A stretch of 64,000 nt of DNA, from positions 558,001-622,000 of the forward strand of contig NZ_CP035119.1 of NCBI RefSeq assembly GCF_004087835.1, given 5' to 3'. The position numbers and the translations under genes are program-made. This document shows positions 3,585-8,495 of this stretch, piece by piece (the stretch's first letter is position 1; every line of letters begins with the position of its first letter). The stretch comes from Halorussus pelagicus. Lineage in GTDB: Archaea; Halobacteriota; Halobacteria; Halobacteriales; Haladaptataceae. Under the pieces are notes generated by a model. That model worked only from the letters and a program-made list of their open reading frames with translations, was not told where the DNA came from and searched no databases.

Positions 3585-6311
3585 TCAGTAACTGTACTCG
3601 GTGTGGAGGCTTCCGCCGTCGTCGTAGAGGTACACCGTGTCGCCCCCGTTGTTCCAGATGTACGACCCGCCCCAGTAGAGTTCGGTCGCCGAGTCCGTGC
3701 CGTCGCCCGAGTGGAGACGAACCGCGTCGCCAGCGCCGAGCGAGAAGCCGTCGGGGAACTGGTAGCTGTTGCCCGCCTCGTCCTCGACGGTCCACCCGGT
3801 CAGGTCCTCGCCGCTGGACCCGGTGTTCTCGAAGTCCACGTACTCGTCGTTGAGCGTCTTGCCGTCCTCGCTGATGGTCTTGACGGCGATTTTGCTGTCC
3901 GAGTCGTTGGTCGGGTACGTCCGTTCGACGGCGAGGTTTCCGGTGTCGTCGTAGACGGACGCCGTGTCGCTGTCGTTGTTCCAGACCGCGGACCCGCGAC
4001 CCCAGTAGAGGTCGGTCGCCGAGTCCGTGCCGCTCCCGGTGTGGACCCGCACCGTCTCGCCAGCGTCGAGCGAGAAGCCATCGGGGAACTGGTAAGTGTT
4101 GTTCGCTTCATCTTCGAGCGACCAGTCGGTCAGGTCGAGGCTACTCGCCCCGGTGTTTTTCACGTCCACGTACTCGTCGTTGAGGGTCGCGCCGTCCTCG
4201 CTGATAGTCGGAATCGAGACCGAGGGTCCGGACGAACCGCCGTCGTCGGGCGTGTAGGCGTCGAACAGCGGGAACGACCCGTCGAAGACGGTCGTCTCGG
4301 GCACCTCGGCGCTGGTCGCCACGCTGTTGGTGTCGTCAACGACTTGGTCGGCGTTGACCCGGAGGTCCGACCCGAGACCGCTGGCGAGGTCGTTGACGTT
4401 CGCGCGCGCTTCCGGCGTAGTCACGCCGCTGCCCATCAGCACGACCGCGCCGCCGTTCGAGACAAAGGCGTTCAGCGCGTCGATTTCGCTCTGGGCGAAC
4501 GACTCGGGCGGAGTCGTGACGACGACCGCTCGCGCGCCCTCAAGGGTCGCGCTGGTGAACTCGTTGACGCCCTCGAAGCCGATGTCCTGTCCTTCGAGAT
4601 AGCGCATGTAGTAGGCGGCGTCCTCGGCGGAGAGACCGTAACTCGCGTTGAACTGGCCGTGACCGCCGTCGATGAGGATGTCGCCCGAGGCGTCCGCGAG
4701 GTAGTCCACGAGATTCGTCAGGAAGGGGTAGTTGCCGTAGCCCGAGGTATCGGTGCTGTACCCCTCGTTTTGCTCGTAGCCCTCGTCGATGAACGGACCG
4801 CCGACGACGCCGACGCTGGCGTCCTCGTCCACGGCCACCAGTGGGATGTCGCCGCTGTAGTCGTGGCCGCCGTCGAGTCGCTGGGTCGCGCTGGTCTCGG
4901 CGTAGACCGGCACGCGCGAGTCCGCCACCGCGCCCGAGGCGGTCCGGATGCTCGCGGTCTGCGGGAAGAAGAGGTCGTCCACGGGGTTGTCACGAATCTC
5001 GGTCGAGTTCTCGGGGTCGCTCTCGGCCCAGACCTGTCGGCCCTCGGCGCGCGCGGCGTCCTCCGAGGCCCGGAACTCGCGGTGTTTGGCGAACGACGAG
5101 TCGTAGACGCGGGCGTGGCCCTGCTTGACGAGTTGGTGGTTGTAGTTGGCGTCGCGGGTCCCGTCGCCGGACTTGTCGTAGTAGAGATAGCCCAGCACGC
5201 GGCCGAAGGCGTCCCGAACCGGTTCGTTCTCGTCGAACACGAGGTCCACTGTCTTTCCACCGAGTTCGTTCTGCCCGAAGGCGGTGGCATCGTCGGCCTT
5301 GTTTTCGAGGTAGGTGTTTTCCTCGATGCCCTCCCACTCTTGGACGCGCTCGTACTGGCTGTTCGAGGACTTCTCGGCGGTGTCGGTCCCGAGGATGCGG
5401 ACGTTCTCGGTCGTGCCGTCGGCGAACTCGACTTTCACCGTGTCGCCGTCGAGGACCTCCGTCACGGGCACTGTGTAGGTCTTGTCGGGGTCGAGACCCA
5501 GACCGTCGCGGTCACCGAAGTAAGGGAACGACGTGTCGAACTGCGTGGTCGTCGGCTGGTAGGGTTCGCCGCCGTTCCGGAACTGGTCGGTCACTTGGTC
5601 GTCGTTGAACCGGAACGCGAGTTCGAGGTAGCCCGCGATGTCGTTGAGGTTCCCCGTGGCGTCGTAGCCGCCGTAGTCCGACTGGTCGTGGAGGAACAGC
5701 CAGCCGCCATTCGCCACGAAGTCGCCGAGCGCGGAGAGTTCGCTCGACGTGAGCGCCGTACTCGGCGAGGTGACGACCGCCGCGTCTGCTCCGGAGAGGT
5801 CCGACGCGAGCGAGGTGGTCGCTTCGACGGTGTAGCCGTTGTTCTCCGCGTAGCTCTCGAACTGGGAGAACTTCGAGAGACCGTAGAACTGGCCGTGCCC
5901 CTCGTCCCAGAGGACGGTTCCCGACCCGCCGAGCGCGTCGTCCCAGACGTTGAGCAGGAACTCCTCGTTGCCGCGTCGCCAACTACTGTCGGAGTCCGTG
6001 ACCAGCATCGACCCGAACCCGACCACGTTCCAGTCGGTGGCGACGAGCGGAATCGACGCGTCGTCGCCGTAGAGGACGCCGTCGCCGTTCGAGTCGGCGT
6101 CGCTGTTCGTCGCGGTGTTCTCGGCCCACACCGCGACGGCGGTGTCGTCGGTGAGCGGTTCGTAGTTGTAGTCCACCAAACTCGACGTGGAGTAGCATTC
6201 GAGTTCGGGAATCTGACCGGACGCCGCGCGTACGCGGTCGGTCAGTTCGATACCTGCGGCCGAACCGCCCGTTGCGGCCGCGAGTGAGGTCAGGAAGGTG
6301 CGTCTCCGCAT
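3585..6311 (-). CDS. Secreted multidomain protein: SNase-like nuclease with two lamin-tail domains
   Basis: A 908-residue exported protein. The first 30 residues (MRRRTFLTSLAAATGG) form a Tat-type signal. Two related segments, about 70-260 and 450-690, each carry an ILIDGGHGQF- or LWDEGHGQF-like motif and resemble glutamine-amidotransferase-like (DUF4350-type) folds. Between them, 279-434 is a staphylococcal-nuclease domain: VLDGDTVKVEF, RILGTDTAEK and the AFGRVLGYLYYD segment keep the Arg, Asp, Thr and Glu positions of active SNases. Residues about 699-800 and 807-908 are two tandem lamin-tail domains (NDEYVDVKNTG and NDEYVDFENTG). Inference: a cell-surface or extracellular nuclease whose lamin-tail modules mediate binding. 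It is divergent from the halocin-like gene. Confidence 0.87.
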   Translation of the reverse strand: MRRRTFLTSLAAATGGSAAGIELTDRVRAASGQIPELECYSTSSLVDYNYEPLTDDTAVAVWAENTATNSDADSNGDGVLYGDDASIPLVATDWNVVGFGSMLVTDSDSSWRRGNEEFLLNVWDDALGGSGTVLWDEGHGQFYGLSKFSQFESYAENNGYTVEATTSLASDLSGADAAVVTSPSTALTSSELSALGDFVANGGWLFLHDQSDYGGYDATGNLNDIAGYLELAFRFNDDQVTDQFRNGGEPYQPTTTQFDTSFPYFGDRDGLGLDPDKTYTVPVTEVLDGDTVKVEFADGTTENVRILGTDTAEKSSNSQYERVQEWEGIEENTYLENKADDATAFGQNELGGKTVDLVFDENEPVRDAFGRVLGYLYYDKSGDGTRDANYNHQLVKQGHARVYDSSFAKHREFRASEDAARAEGRQVWAESDPENSTEIRDNPVDDLFFPQTASIRTASGAVADSRVPVYAETSATQRLDGGHDYSGDIPLVAVDEDASVGVVGGPFIDEGYEQNEGYSTDTSGYGNYPFLTNLVDYLADASGDILIDGGHGQFNASYGLSAEDAAYYMRYLEGQDIGFEGVNEFTSATLEGARAVVVTTPPESFAQSEIDALNAFVSNGGAVVLMGSGVTTPEARANVNDLASGLGSDLRVNADQVVDDTNSVATSAEVPETTVFDGSFPLFDAYTPDDGGSSGPSVSIPTISEDGATLNDEYVDVKNTGASSLDLTDWSLEDEANNTYQFPDGFSLDAGETVRVHTGSGTDSATDLYWGRGSAVWNNDSDTASVYDDTGNLAVERTYPTNDSDSKIAVKTISEDGKTLNDEYVDFENTGSSGEDLTGWTVEDEAGNSYQFPDGFSLGAGDAVRLHSGDGTDSATELYWGGSYIWNNGGDTVYLYDDGGSLHTEYSY

Positions 6312-6332
6312 GAGCGAAAAACGACCATCACA

Positions 6333-6342
6333 TAATATAAAA
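6333..6342 (-). promoter_or_regulatory. TATA box of secreted nuclease gene
   Basis: TTTTATATTA on the minus strand lies 22-31 bases ahead of the ATG at 6311, the spacing expected for an archaeal TATA box with a leaderless transcript. Confidence 0.6.
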
Positions 6343-6372
6343 CCACACCAAAATAAAATCTAATAAATAAAA

Positions 6373-6383
6373 ATATATTTATA
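6373..6383 (+). promoter_or_regulatory. TATA box of halocin-like gene
   Basis: ATATATTTATA lies 24-34 bases ahead of the ATG at 6407, again leaderless spacing. The whole 95-base divergent spacer is extremely AT-rich. Confidence 0.55.
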
Positions 6384-6406
6384 GTCTAAAATATAAGAAT
6401 GTATTA

Positions 6407-7246
6407 ATGCCGCGGGAAATGGAAAAAGAAAGTTCGAAGAATCGTTCACTCAATCGACGCCGCTTCCTCGGAGCCGCCTGTGCAACAAGCAGTGCAGCAT
6501 TAACTTCCGGTTTTTTGAGGCCGAACCCTGAAGAAAAATTCGAAATAGATGATTTTCTTGATTCAGAAAATTTAAAAGATTTGTTGGAAAAGGTAGGGAA
6601 CCCCGAAGTAAAAGACCAAAATTCTGAGGTATATGAAGGAAGAAACCTGAAACTGGCTTCTGCCAACCTCGACACGGAGGTTGGAACAGTGAAATTCTTA
6701 GAAGTGCTTGAATCGAATATCGGAAAATTCGATCAAGGAGATACGTCGTTGAAATTTAAAGTAGAAAATCTAACCGGCGAAACTCGGAGGTCACTACCTA
6801 CTCGGGTTAATAGTATTCCGGCTGGTGTTGACTTTACACTTCGCAACAAGGGTAATAGAACGAGTCTCACTACTACTGTGACACGTAGCGAACAAGTTCA
6901 ACTGTCTAAACTCGTAGGAAGCGAAAATTTCACTGCTCTATATGTGAATGATCATTACTACGTGAAAACTGGAGAAAGCGAGACGTACTACGTTACGGGA
7001 GAAATAGAGCGTCCAAAAATTAATAATGCCTCAGTTGAAAAAGCAGTGACCACACAGGTTGATGCTGAGGCATGTTTCAACTGTGGTGTCAATGCTCCAG
7101 GATGTGTTGGAAACTGTCTCACTCCGTGTCTCCCTGAGCACGGCAACCCCATTGATTGTGCTACTTGTATTGGGAAACATTGTGTGGGCTTAGATGTAAA
7201 ATCCTGTACAAAATGCATAGCTAGCATACCTGAAGACTTGCTATAA
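6407..7246 (+). CDS. Halocin C8-like precursor: Tat-exported protein with ten-cysteine C-terminal peptide
   Basis: A 279-residue protein with a Tat signal (NRRRFLGAACATSSAAL, residues 16-32) and a hydrophilic middle domain of about 185 residues. Its Cys-rich C terminus has ten cysteines at about 223, 226, 233, 237, 241, 251, 254, 259, 267 and 270. Halocin C8 is made in the same way: a precursor of about 283 residues with a Tat signal, an N-terminal immunity domain (HalI) and a C-terminal 76-residue peptide with ten Cys. Architecture, length and Cys number agree, though the Cys spacing differs, so this is probably a divergent microhalocin. It could instead be a metal-binding secreted protein. 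Codon use is AT-rich, unlike the surrounding chromosome. ATG 6419 is an alternative start. Confidence 0.65.
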   Translation: MPREMEKESSKNRSLNRRRFLGAACATSSAALTSGFLRPNPEEKFEIDDFLDSENLKDLLEKVGNPEVKDQNSEVYEGRNLKLASANLDTEVGTVKFLEVLESNIGKFDQGDTSLKFKVENLTGETRRSLPTRVNSIPAGVDFTLRNKGNRTSLTTTVTRSEQVQLSKLVGSENFTALYVNDHYYVKTGESETYYVTGEIERPKINNASVEKAVTTQVDAEACFNCGVNAPGCVGNCLTPCLPEHGNPIDCATCIGKHCVGLDVKSCTKCIASIPEDLL

Positions 7247-7283
7247 CAAGCAACCACCGGTTTCAGAATCTGAAAGACACTAA

Positions 7284-8033
7284 TTAATCGATACGTTTCG
7301 CGTCTTTTGGCGGGTCAAAGTCAAAAATAGACGCTGACAACTCGGTATTTATATCTACTTGCTTGAACTTTCTTTTTTGCAATAAATCGATCTCTTGGAA
7401 ATCTACCGATTCATGAGTATTGAAAATTTCTCCATCTTTAATTTTATATTCCACCTCACGTTTCATTGGGAACCAATATTCAGAATCTATCCAAATGAAA
7501 ATATAGTCAAGATTTTCTAAGAACGAATTGACCATCTCCGTCGGTTGGAATCGTAAAACATAGGCCTTACGGTCTGCAACATACTCTACACCTTCATAAG
7601 AGATATTAAACGTCGTTAACGGAGAAGAACCAATCAGCGTCGTAGTTATCGTATGACCGATTTGCTCTCTTGGTGATTGTAGCGGATGAATTTTGTACGT
7701 ATTTTGTTTTTCGTCATAAATCACTATTTTGTTTCTATCTTGAAGGACTATATCTCCAGATTTTCCAAACTCACTCACAGGACTATTTATAACGCTAATT
7801 TCGAAATCGAACTCTTGAATAACTTTGGTAGATATTACTTCTGAGCGAAATTGATAGGGAAGCGATTCCCAGATTTCTACTTCGGTTTCTTTCAATCCAT
7901 TTCCATACTCTAACTGTTTTACTTGTTTCGCATGGATTGTGTCTGGTAGATTATCTTCCTTTTGTAGTCTCTCTACAATTTTTTCTACCGACGGTGGCTC
8001 CCCATTCATCACCATCGTACTACTATTCTTCAT
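7284..8033 (-). CDS. LolA-like (outer-membrane-lipoprotein-sorting fold) protein without signal peptide
   Basis: A 249-residue protein. Its strand-rich pattern is that of LolA/RseB-like proteins: PSVEKIVERLQKE, then alternating strands with WESLPYQFRSEVI, VLQDRNKIVIYDEKQNTYKI and a C-terminal FDFDPP. The fold is a half barrel that binds acyl chains or lipoproteins. Haloarchaeal members usually start with a lipoprotein signal, but this one begins directly at the domain (MKNSSTMVMNG). An AT-rich promoter-like stretch lies just ahead of ATG 8033, so a missed signal exon is unlikely. Convergent with the halocin-like gene across 37 bases and equally AT-rich. A role as immunity or accessory partner is only inference. 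Confidence 0.6.
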   Translation of the reverse strand: MKNSSTMVMNGEPPSVEKIVERLQKEDNLPDTIHAKQVKQLEYGNGLKETEVEIWESLPYQFRSEVISTKVIQEFDFEISVINSPVSEFGKSGDIVLQDRNKIVIYDEKQNTYKIHPLQSPREQIGHTITTTLIGSSPLTTFNISYEGVEYVADRKAYVLRFQPTEMVNSFLENLDYIFIWIDSEYWFPMKREVEYKIKDGEIFNTHESVDFQEIDLLQKRKFKQVDINTELSASIFDFDPPKDAKRID

Positions 8034-8147
8034 AATGTAAATCTTCCCATAATACTATATTTGCTGATAGAGATTTTCCGGCCCTTTTCCCATTCTCTCT
8101 TGGCTCCTATTCTAAACCGAGGAGTTGACCTGCGTGGAGTCCCTACC

Positions 8148-8381
8148 ATGTCCTATGAACCGACGGAACGGCGGTGGTCGGTGATGGGCGGCGGCGAGAA
8201 ACTTCGGTTCGGACTGGCGCTTGCGACCGGCGTCATCGTACCGGGCTTTCTCAAGTACGCCTTCACGACCGTCGGCTACGAGGCGCTCGGGACCGCGGTG
8301 TGGGTCAGCGGCTATCTGACCGCGATACTCGCCATCTGGTACGTCTGGATTCGACCGCTCGACTTCCAAGGGACAAGTTAG
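8148..8381 (+). CDS. Small membrane protein
   Basis: A 77-residue protein with two predicted membrane helices: FGLALATGVIVPGFLKYAF and a second around VWVSGYLTAILAIWYVW. The N terminus is charged. ATG 8148 was chosen over an upstream TTG at 8061 because the extra residues are not haloarchaeal in composition and lie in the AT-rich island. High GC resumes here, marking the island border. No function can be assigned. Confidence 0.65.
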   Translation: MSYEPTERRWSVMGGGEKLRFGLALATGVIVPGFLKYAFTTVGYEALGTAVWVSGYLTAILAIWYVWIRPLDFQGTS

Positions 8382-8495
8382 CGCGGCTCGGGACCACGAG
8401 CGACGCGACGAGGTGACCATCCGCCCCCGACCGACCCGGCCGACTGGCGCATAGCGGAACTTTAAAGAGTATTTCGGGGCGAGTTTTCGGTAAGG

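Follow-up and report, generated by a model that had tools for sequence, protein, structure and literature searches.

To our knowledge, very few archaeal antimicrobial peptides have been characterised. ProC8, which comprises HalI and halocin C8 (HalC8), consists of a Tat signal, a middle part and a C-terminal peptide with ten cysteines, and HalI acts as the immunity protein (reviewed in PMC11509114). Secreted haloarchaeal precursors are also known to be activated by extracellular serine proteases (PMC12893001). Here we describe a cysteine-rich precursor and its neighbour, gene N, encoded in the window (i.e., the whole 64,000-nucleotide stretch of haloarchaeal DNA that was analysed), together with the family of related precursors, A3, and a disulfide pattern predicted from its evolution.

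The coordinates, strand and length (279 residues) given for the precursor gene in the first-pass annotation were correct on re-reading (Table 1). The Tat motif reported there is present as well, with the twin arginines at residues 17-18 and a match to NCBIfam TIGR01409 of 18.2 bits (cut-off 16.7), and the count of ten cysteines within 48 residues is exact. The protein contains 11 cysteines in total, C25 in the signal and ten in the C-terminal segment, at residues 223, 226, 233, 237, 241, 251, 254, 259, 267 and 270. Several CxxC motifs are found in the peptide. A chance origin of the cluster was considered and rejected; at a background frequency of 0.6%, as found in acidic open reading frames within the window, the probability of at least ten cysteines in 48 residues is about 3e-13 per segment. 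The strand opposite the precursor has stops throughout in the translated frame and holds short open reading frames only. Because full-length homologues occur in the genus and a wider family occurs in haloarchaea, we regard the reading frame as a real gene.

Table 1. Coordinates of the features at the precursor locus (window positions) and of the copies of a recurrent membrane protein (positions within the named loci)
Feature	Coordinates	Strand	Basis or remarks
AT-rich two-gene insertion	6323..8114		36-45% GC, surroundings 62-73%
Precursor gene, 279 aa	6407..7246	+	Tat signal, middle domain (about 41-220), ten-Cys C-terminal peptide (about 221-279)
Tat signal region, residues 1-40	6407..6526	+	TIGR01409 match
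Middle domain, residues 41-220	6527..7066	+	Conserved in family A3; AlphaFold2 model
Ten-Cys peptide, residues 223-270	7073..7216	+	Cys co-loss in 41 peptides; three predicted helices
Gene N, 249 aa, LolA-like, candidate immunity gene	7284..8033	-	Conserved beside close precursors; weak PF17131 match of homologues
Membrane protein of about 280 residues, copies	L049:5967-6809, L048:351-1217, L046:9175-10176, L054:7184-8089, L072:697-1488, L081:142-999		

Two further species of the genus carry full-length homologues of the precursor that are 43% and 38% identical to it, and a homologue in another genus is 24% identical (alignment A1). A four-sequence profile of the window protein and its close homologues matched members in unrelated haloarchaeal genera, and a search of 391 haloarchaeal genomes with a 32-member profile found family A3 in about 40, counting matches that extend past the Tat signal (most weaker matches cover the Tat signal only). 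Members share a Tat signal, a middle domain of about 170 residues and a C-terminal peptide with mostly 10-12 cysteines; in the middle domain G93 and E162 are invariant and the R156 and T159 columns are conserved to at least 90%. The window protein is itself a row of A3 and matches its profile at 1.6e-51. It carries the core C-x2/3-C-x3-C-x(5-13)-C-x2-C-x4-C and the RxxTxxE-like motif, of which T and E are kept and R is replaced by T. Two further full members, L045 and L182, are encoded in the same genome. Searches of A3 members against Pfam and NCBIfam gave no clear family besides Tat-signal models, those of PADLOC and PHROGs gave nothing relevant, and plasmid records yielded no match. As judged from sequence, A3 is a separate and widespread haloarchaeal family without a Pfam or NCBIfam model. 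A survey of archaeal toxins and archaeocins, reportedly published by Makarova and others in mBio in 2019, may already list A3 proteins.

Forty-one A3 peptides were aligned over twelve cysteine positions (a few members with odd or eight-cysteine tails, which could not be placed in the twelve-position pattern, were left out beforehand). Positions 3, 5, 8 and 10 are invariant, and the remaining eight are lost in pairs. C2 and C11 are lost together in 13 peptides (p 5.7e-11), C4 and C9 in five, and C6 and C7 in four, each with no discordant case; C1 and C12 are lost together in three, with one discordant case, and this pair depends on a single clade. The sole discordance, L198, is a gene fragment at a frame-broken locus. 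On a middle-domain tree of 35 tips, from which the window protein and some others are absent owing to the middle-domain cut, the minimum number of changes under parsimony is 5 for pair 2-11, 2 for 4-9, 3 for 6-7 and 1 for 1-12, equal for both partners in every case. All four pairs satisfy i + j = 13 and are nested, an arrangement which four disjoint pairs would reach at random with a probability of about 3e-4.

The loss of cysteines in nested pairs implies that the arms of a helical hairpin are joined by nested disulfides, like the rungs of a ladder, and the nesting of these four pairs in turn suggests pairs 3-10 and 5-8 for the invariant positions. The window peptide has positions 2 to 11 and therefore five predicted disulfides, which would join residues 223-270, 226-267, 233-259, 237-254 and 241-251. 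An AlphaFold2 model, built without the co-loss data as input, places helices at residues 220-241, 248-258 and 264-273 of the precursor (pLDDT about 53-73), with five cysteines in the first helix and five in or beside the other two. At the modest confidence of the model in this region, the predicted helix layout has the geometry that the ladder would require.

Paired changes were also found among 45 HalC8-type peptides, in which cysteines 4 and 7 are absent from seven (one discordance) and cysteines 3 and 8 from one, and in which five carry an inserted pair, 5'-6' (two discordances); these changes probably amount to few independent events. The pattern suggests that the disulfides of HalC8 may be nested too. 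In L066, L206, L212, L214 and L216, all of the HalC8 type, cysteines 4 and 7 were lost and a new inner pair was gained.

The relation of the window protein to HalC8 is one of design. The arrangement of signal, middle part (about 180 residues) and ten-cysteine peptide to which the first-pass annotation had drawn attention agrees with that of the HalC8 precursor (PMC11509114). The HalC8 family resembles the window protein in its Tat signal, its middle part of about 170 residues, the similar size of its ten-cysteine peptide and its haloarchaeal hosts, and it occurs in about 10% of genomes, as does A3. The further claim of a divergent HalC8 precursor did not hold. TIGR04449 gave no match at E 10 to the window protein or to the peptide alone, and none at E 1 to the members of the A3 alignment; it scored above its cut-off for three HalC8-type proteins of the same genome (G000:C1:417137 (L007), 1557201 (L009) and 2303422 (L008)). 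The cysteine spacing of the window peptide is C-2-C-6-C-3-C-3-C-9-C-2-C-4-C-7-C-2-C, whereas that of HalC8, nearly fixed in its family, is C-2-C-7-C-3-C-7-C-12/13-C-7-C-8-C-8-C-5/7-C (13 and 5 in the form compared directly). We take L064, a member of that family, to be halocin C8 itself. The window peptide is also less hydrophobic (GRAVY 0.37 versus 0.89 for HalC8). With the Tat signal removed, hhalign comparison of A3 with HalC8 gave probabilities of 0.2-1.5% for the middle domains and 0.5-0.9% for the peptides. (Note that an hhalign match between the two families at 88-97% was due to the Tat signal and was discarded, as it disappeared once the signal was cut off.) Since TIGR04449 does not match, the spacing differs and the profiles share only the Tat signal, we place the window protein outside the halocin C8 family by every test applied.

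A true HalC8 precursor that has diverged strongly from a common ancestor, with a middle domain providing HalI-like self-immunity, nevertheless has an identical architecture to commend it. In predicted models both middle domains start from a pair of short helices that lead into an antiparallel sheet (the HalC8 model, of L064, covers the HalI part without the cysteine peptide), some members of both families carry a pre-Tat extension containing DGGGCxE[AT]W or a close variant, and HalC8-type relatives likewise lose or gain cysteines as nested pairs, so that the topology may match. We nonetheless consider this reading unlikely, because TIGR04449 finds no A3 protein, hhalign without the signal stays below 2%, and the spacing is of another type. 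The structural neighbours, weak in both cases, differ (OspA-like sheet for the window protein, cystatin-like for HalI), a difference that decides little, and the two families may still share a very remote origin.

The pre-Tat extension was seen at the N-termini of L023, L033, L066, L074, L077 and L086, and it is possibly a shared control or processing element. Genes for a membrane protein of about 280 residues that carries the motifs EYTGxNRCxxCTxxN and RGYLVPGTPxLTK were seen repeatedly in the vicinity of cysteine-rich precursors of either family (Table 1); the two copies tested had no Pfam match above cut-off.

The genes flanking the precursor and gene N are 2.6 kb apart in the window and 0.7-0.8 kb apart in G013, G016, G023, G024 and G026. 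In the alignment, the extra DNA lies between positions 6322 and 8115, where the relatives have about 100 bases, and this insertion of about 1.7 kb coincides with a drop in GC content, from about 65% to 36-45%. A search for terminal repeats of the insertion produced nothing convincing. G026 has a precursor/N pair elsewhere and is empty at the window site. A remnant locus on the same chromosome as the window (position 1450280) shares its flanking genes, as judged by eye, with L042 and L043. It is therefore likely to be the original site, in which case the copy in the window arrived separately. Read from these comparisons, the pair is a recently acquired module that is absent from related genomes. 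The insertion site adjoins a gene on the reverse strand (3585-6311) for a protein of 908 residues with staphylococcal nuclease, two lamin-tail and DUF4350/GIFT-like domains, which is conserved in much of the genus.

Gene N is convergent with the precursor and ends 37 bases past the precursor stop, and N has this convergent orientation at all three full close homologues; a homologue of N is so placed beside L042 and beside L043. At the remnant locus the precursor is reduced to its last 40 or so codons and N is open over 242 codons; this copy is 91% identical to N of L042 with a dN/dS of 0.41, which is mild evidence that N is maintained. Homologues of N match the Pfam family LolA_like (PF17131, MucB/RseB) weakly, with E values of 6.7e-6 and 3.9e-5, and the best score of a homologue, 26.3 bits, lies below the gathering score of 30. 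No signal peptide, lipobox or membrane segment was seen in the sequence of N, unlike L120, an ordinary LolA-like lipoprotein encoded elsewhere in the genome. An orphan homologue (L199:3449-4147, G257) has no precursor within the stretch read. A search around the precursors of the wider A3 family turned up no N. Small proteins with at least two predicted transmembrane segments are encoded directly downstream (within 500 bases) of 10 of 22 A3 genes, as against 4 of 67 control reading frames (p 7e-5), a few of the 10 sharing one small gene or lying on the opposite strand. L042 also encodes a protein of 209 residues (7781-8410) with the N-terminal sequence DRRQML and 16 cysteines, whose gene has ABC transporter genes on one side and the precursor homologue on the other; its N-terminal part shows a weak match to CdiI_2.

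The proposal that the N-terminal part of the precursor confers self-immunity is doubtful, as the separate gene N, conserved and intact beside a remnant precursor, is the better candidate. Gene N is probably an immunity protein, to go by its conservation, although it could have another role, given its opposite strand, its lack of a signal or membrane segment and the existence of an orphan copy. One such role would make N a helper of folding or export and the peptide a secreted signal or surface component, such as a pheromone or an adhesin; N looks cytoplasmic and LolA-like, as would suit a chaperone of a Tat substrate, but its survival beside a precursor remnant of about 40 codons and its orphan occurrence fit immunity better than a helper, and patchy occurrence and modular insertion are typical of conflict genes. 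We rate this explanation as quite improbable.

The middle domain is modelled by AlphaFold2 with pLDDT mostly of 84-93. The best structural hits to it were an E value of 0.16 in Foldseek and a Z score of 5.6 in VIA-align, which we take as no match; OspA-like sheets were among the top rows, as weak matches. A new fold does not follow from this missing match. A search of PDB sequences with the A3 profile returned Tat-signal and chance matches only. The first-pass annotation had named two findings which together would speak against it, a lack of similarity to HalI or HalC8 profiles and a structure resembling a known metal-binding or enzyme fold; the former was borne out, and the latter was not. 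A role of the ten-cysteine segment in metal binding or redox chemistry, as a domain of some extracellular enzyme or carrier protein, is very improbable. The CxxC motifs and the suitability of Tat export for cofactor proteins would be in keeping with it, but the cysteines vanish by twos, in nested pairs and in separate lineages, as expected of disulfides and unlike four-ligand metal sites, and the searches matched neither a family nor a fold of metal-binding proteins or enzymes.

The best reading of the locus remains a microhalocin-like one. We consider it somewhat probable that the window encodes a disulfide-laddered archaeocin precursor with a separate immunity protein, working like HalC8 and yet no member of its family. 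The precursor would be exported via the Tat pathway, and its C-terminal 55 or so residues would fold as a helical hairpin whose arms are joined by five nested disulfides. The middle domain is probably a pro-domain that holds the peptide folded and inactive until an extracellular protease presumably frees it, the target being the envelope of related haloarchaea. Protection of the producer would most likely come from gene N, the LolA-like convergent partner with which the precursor travels as a module of two genes; elsewhere in A3, a small membrane protein encoded beside the precursor may often fill this role. The export signal, the family, the joint loss of cysteines, the conservation of the module and the insertion are computational results; we infer antimicrobial activity, proteolytic release, disulfide pairing and immunity alike from sequence patterns and from analogy with the described systems.

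A broader proposal, to which we give slightly less than an even chance, is that A3 represents a second class of microhalocins found throughout haloarchaea and about as common as HalC8, with a nested ladder of five to six rungs and exchangeable immunity genes (LolA-like or small membrane proteins), and that HalC8, unrelated in sequence, converged on or shares this topology. If so, HalC8 would not be the only widespread precursor family of haloarchaea, and the second one would come with a disulfide topology that is both specific and testable and was obtained solely by evolutionary comparison, with a candidate partner for immunity, and with a pair of natural experiments, namely an insertion into a clean site and a decayed precursor with a surviving partner. 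The reasoning from co-loss would extend to a proposed disulfide pairing for halocin C8, predicted as 1-10, 2-9, 3-8, 4-7 and 5-6.

Among the described systems, HalH4 and HFX_0892/HmHapP resemble the window precursor, by analogy, as inactive secreted precursors activated by extracellular proteolysis (PMC12893001). The active part of HmHapP is its N-terminal 45 residues, whereas that of the window precursor would be its cysteine-rich C-terminal peptide. In HalC8, immunity resides within the precursor, whereas the window module probably has a separate immunity gene. The alpha-hairpinins, antimicrobial peptides of plants (PMC7191063, PMC11591084), have a helix-loop-helix form in which nested disulfides join the two arms. 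They are eukaryotic and have four cysteines, in contrast to ten to twelve in A3. No sequence relation is claimed, and the likeness lies in a hairpin with nested disulfides across its arms, which on the side of A3 is predicted from the joint loss of cysteines.
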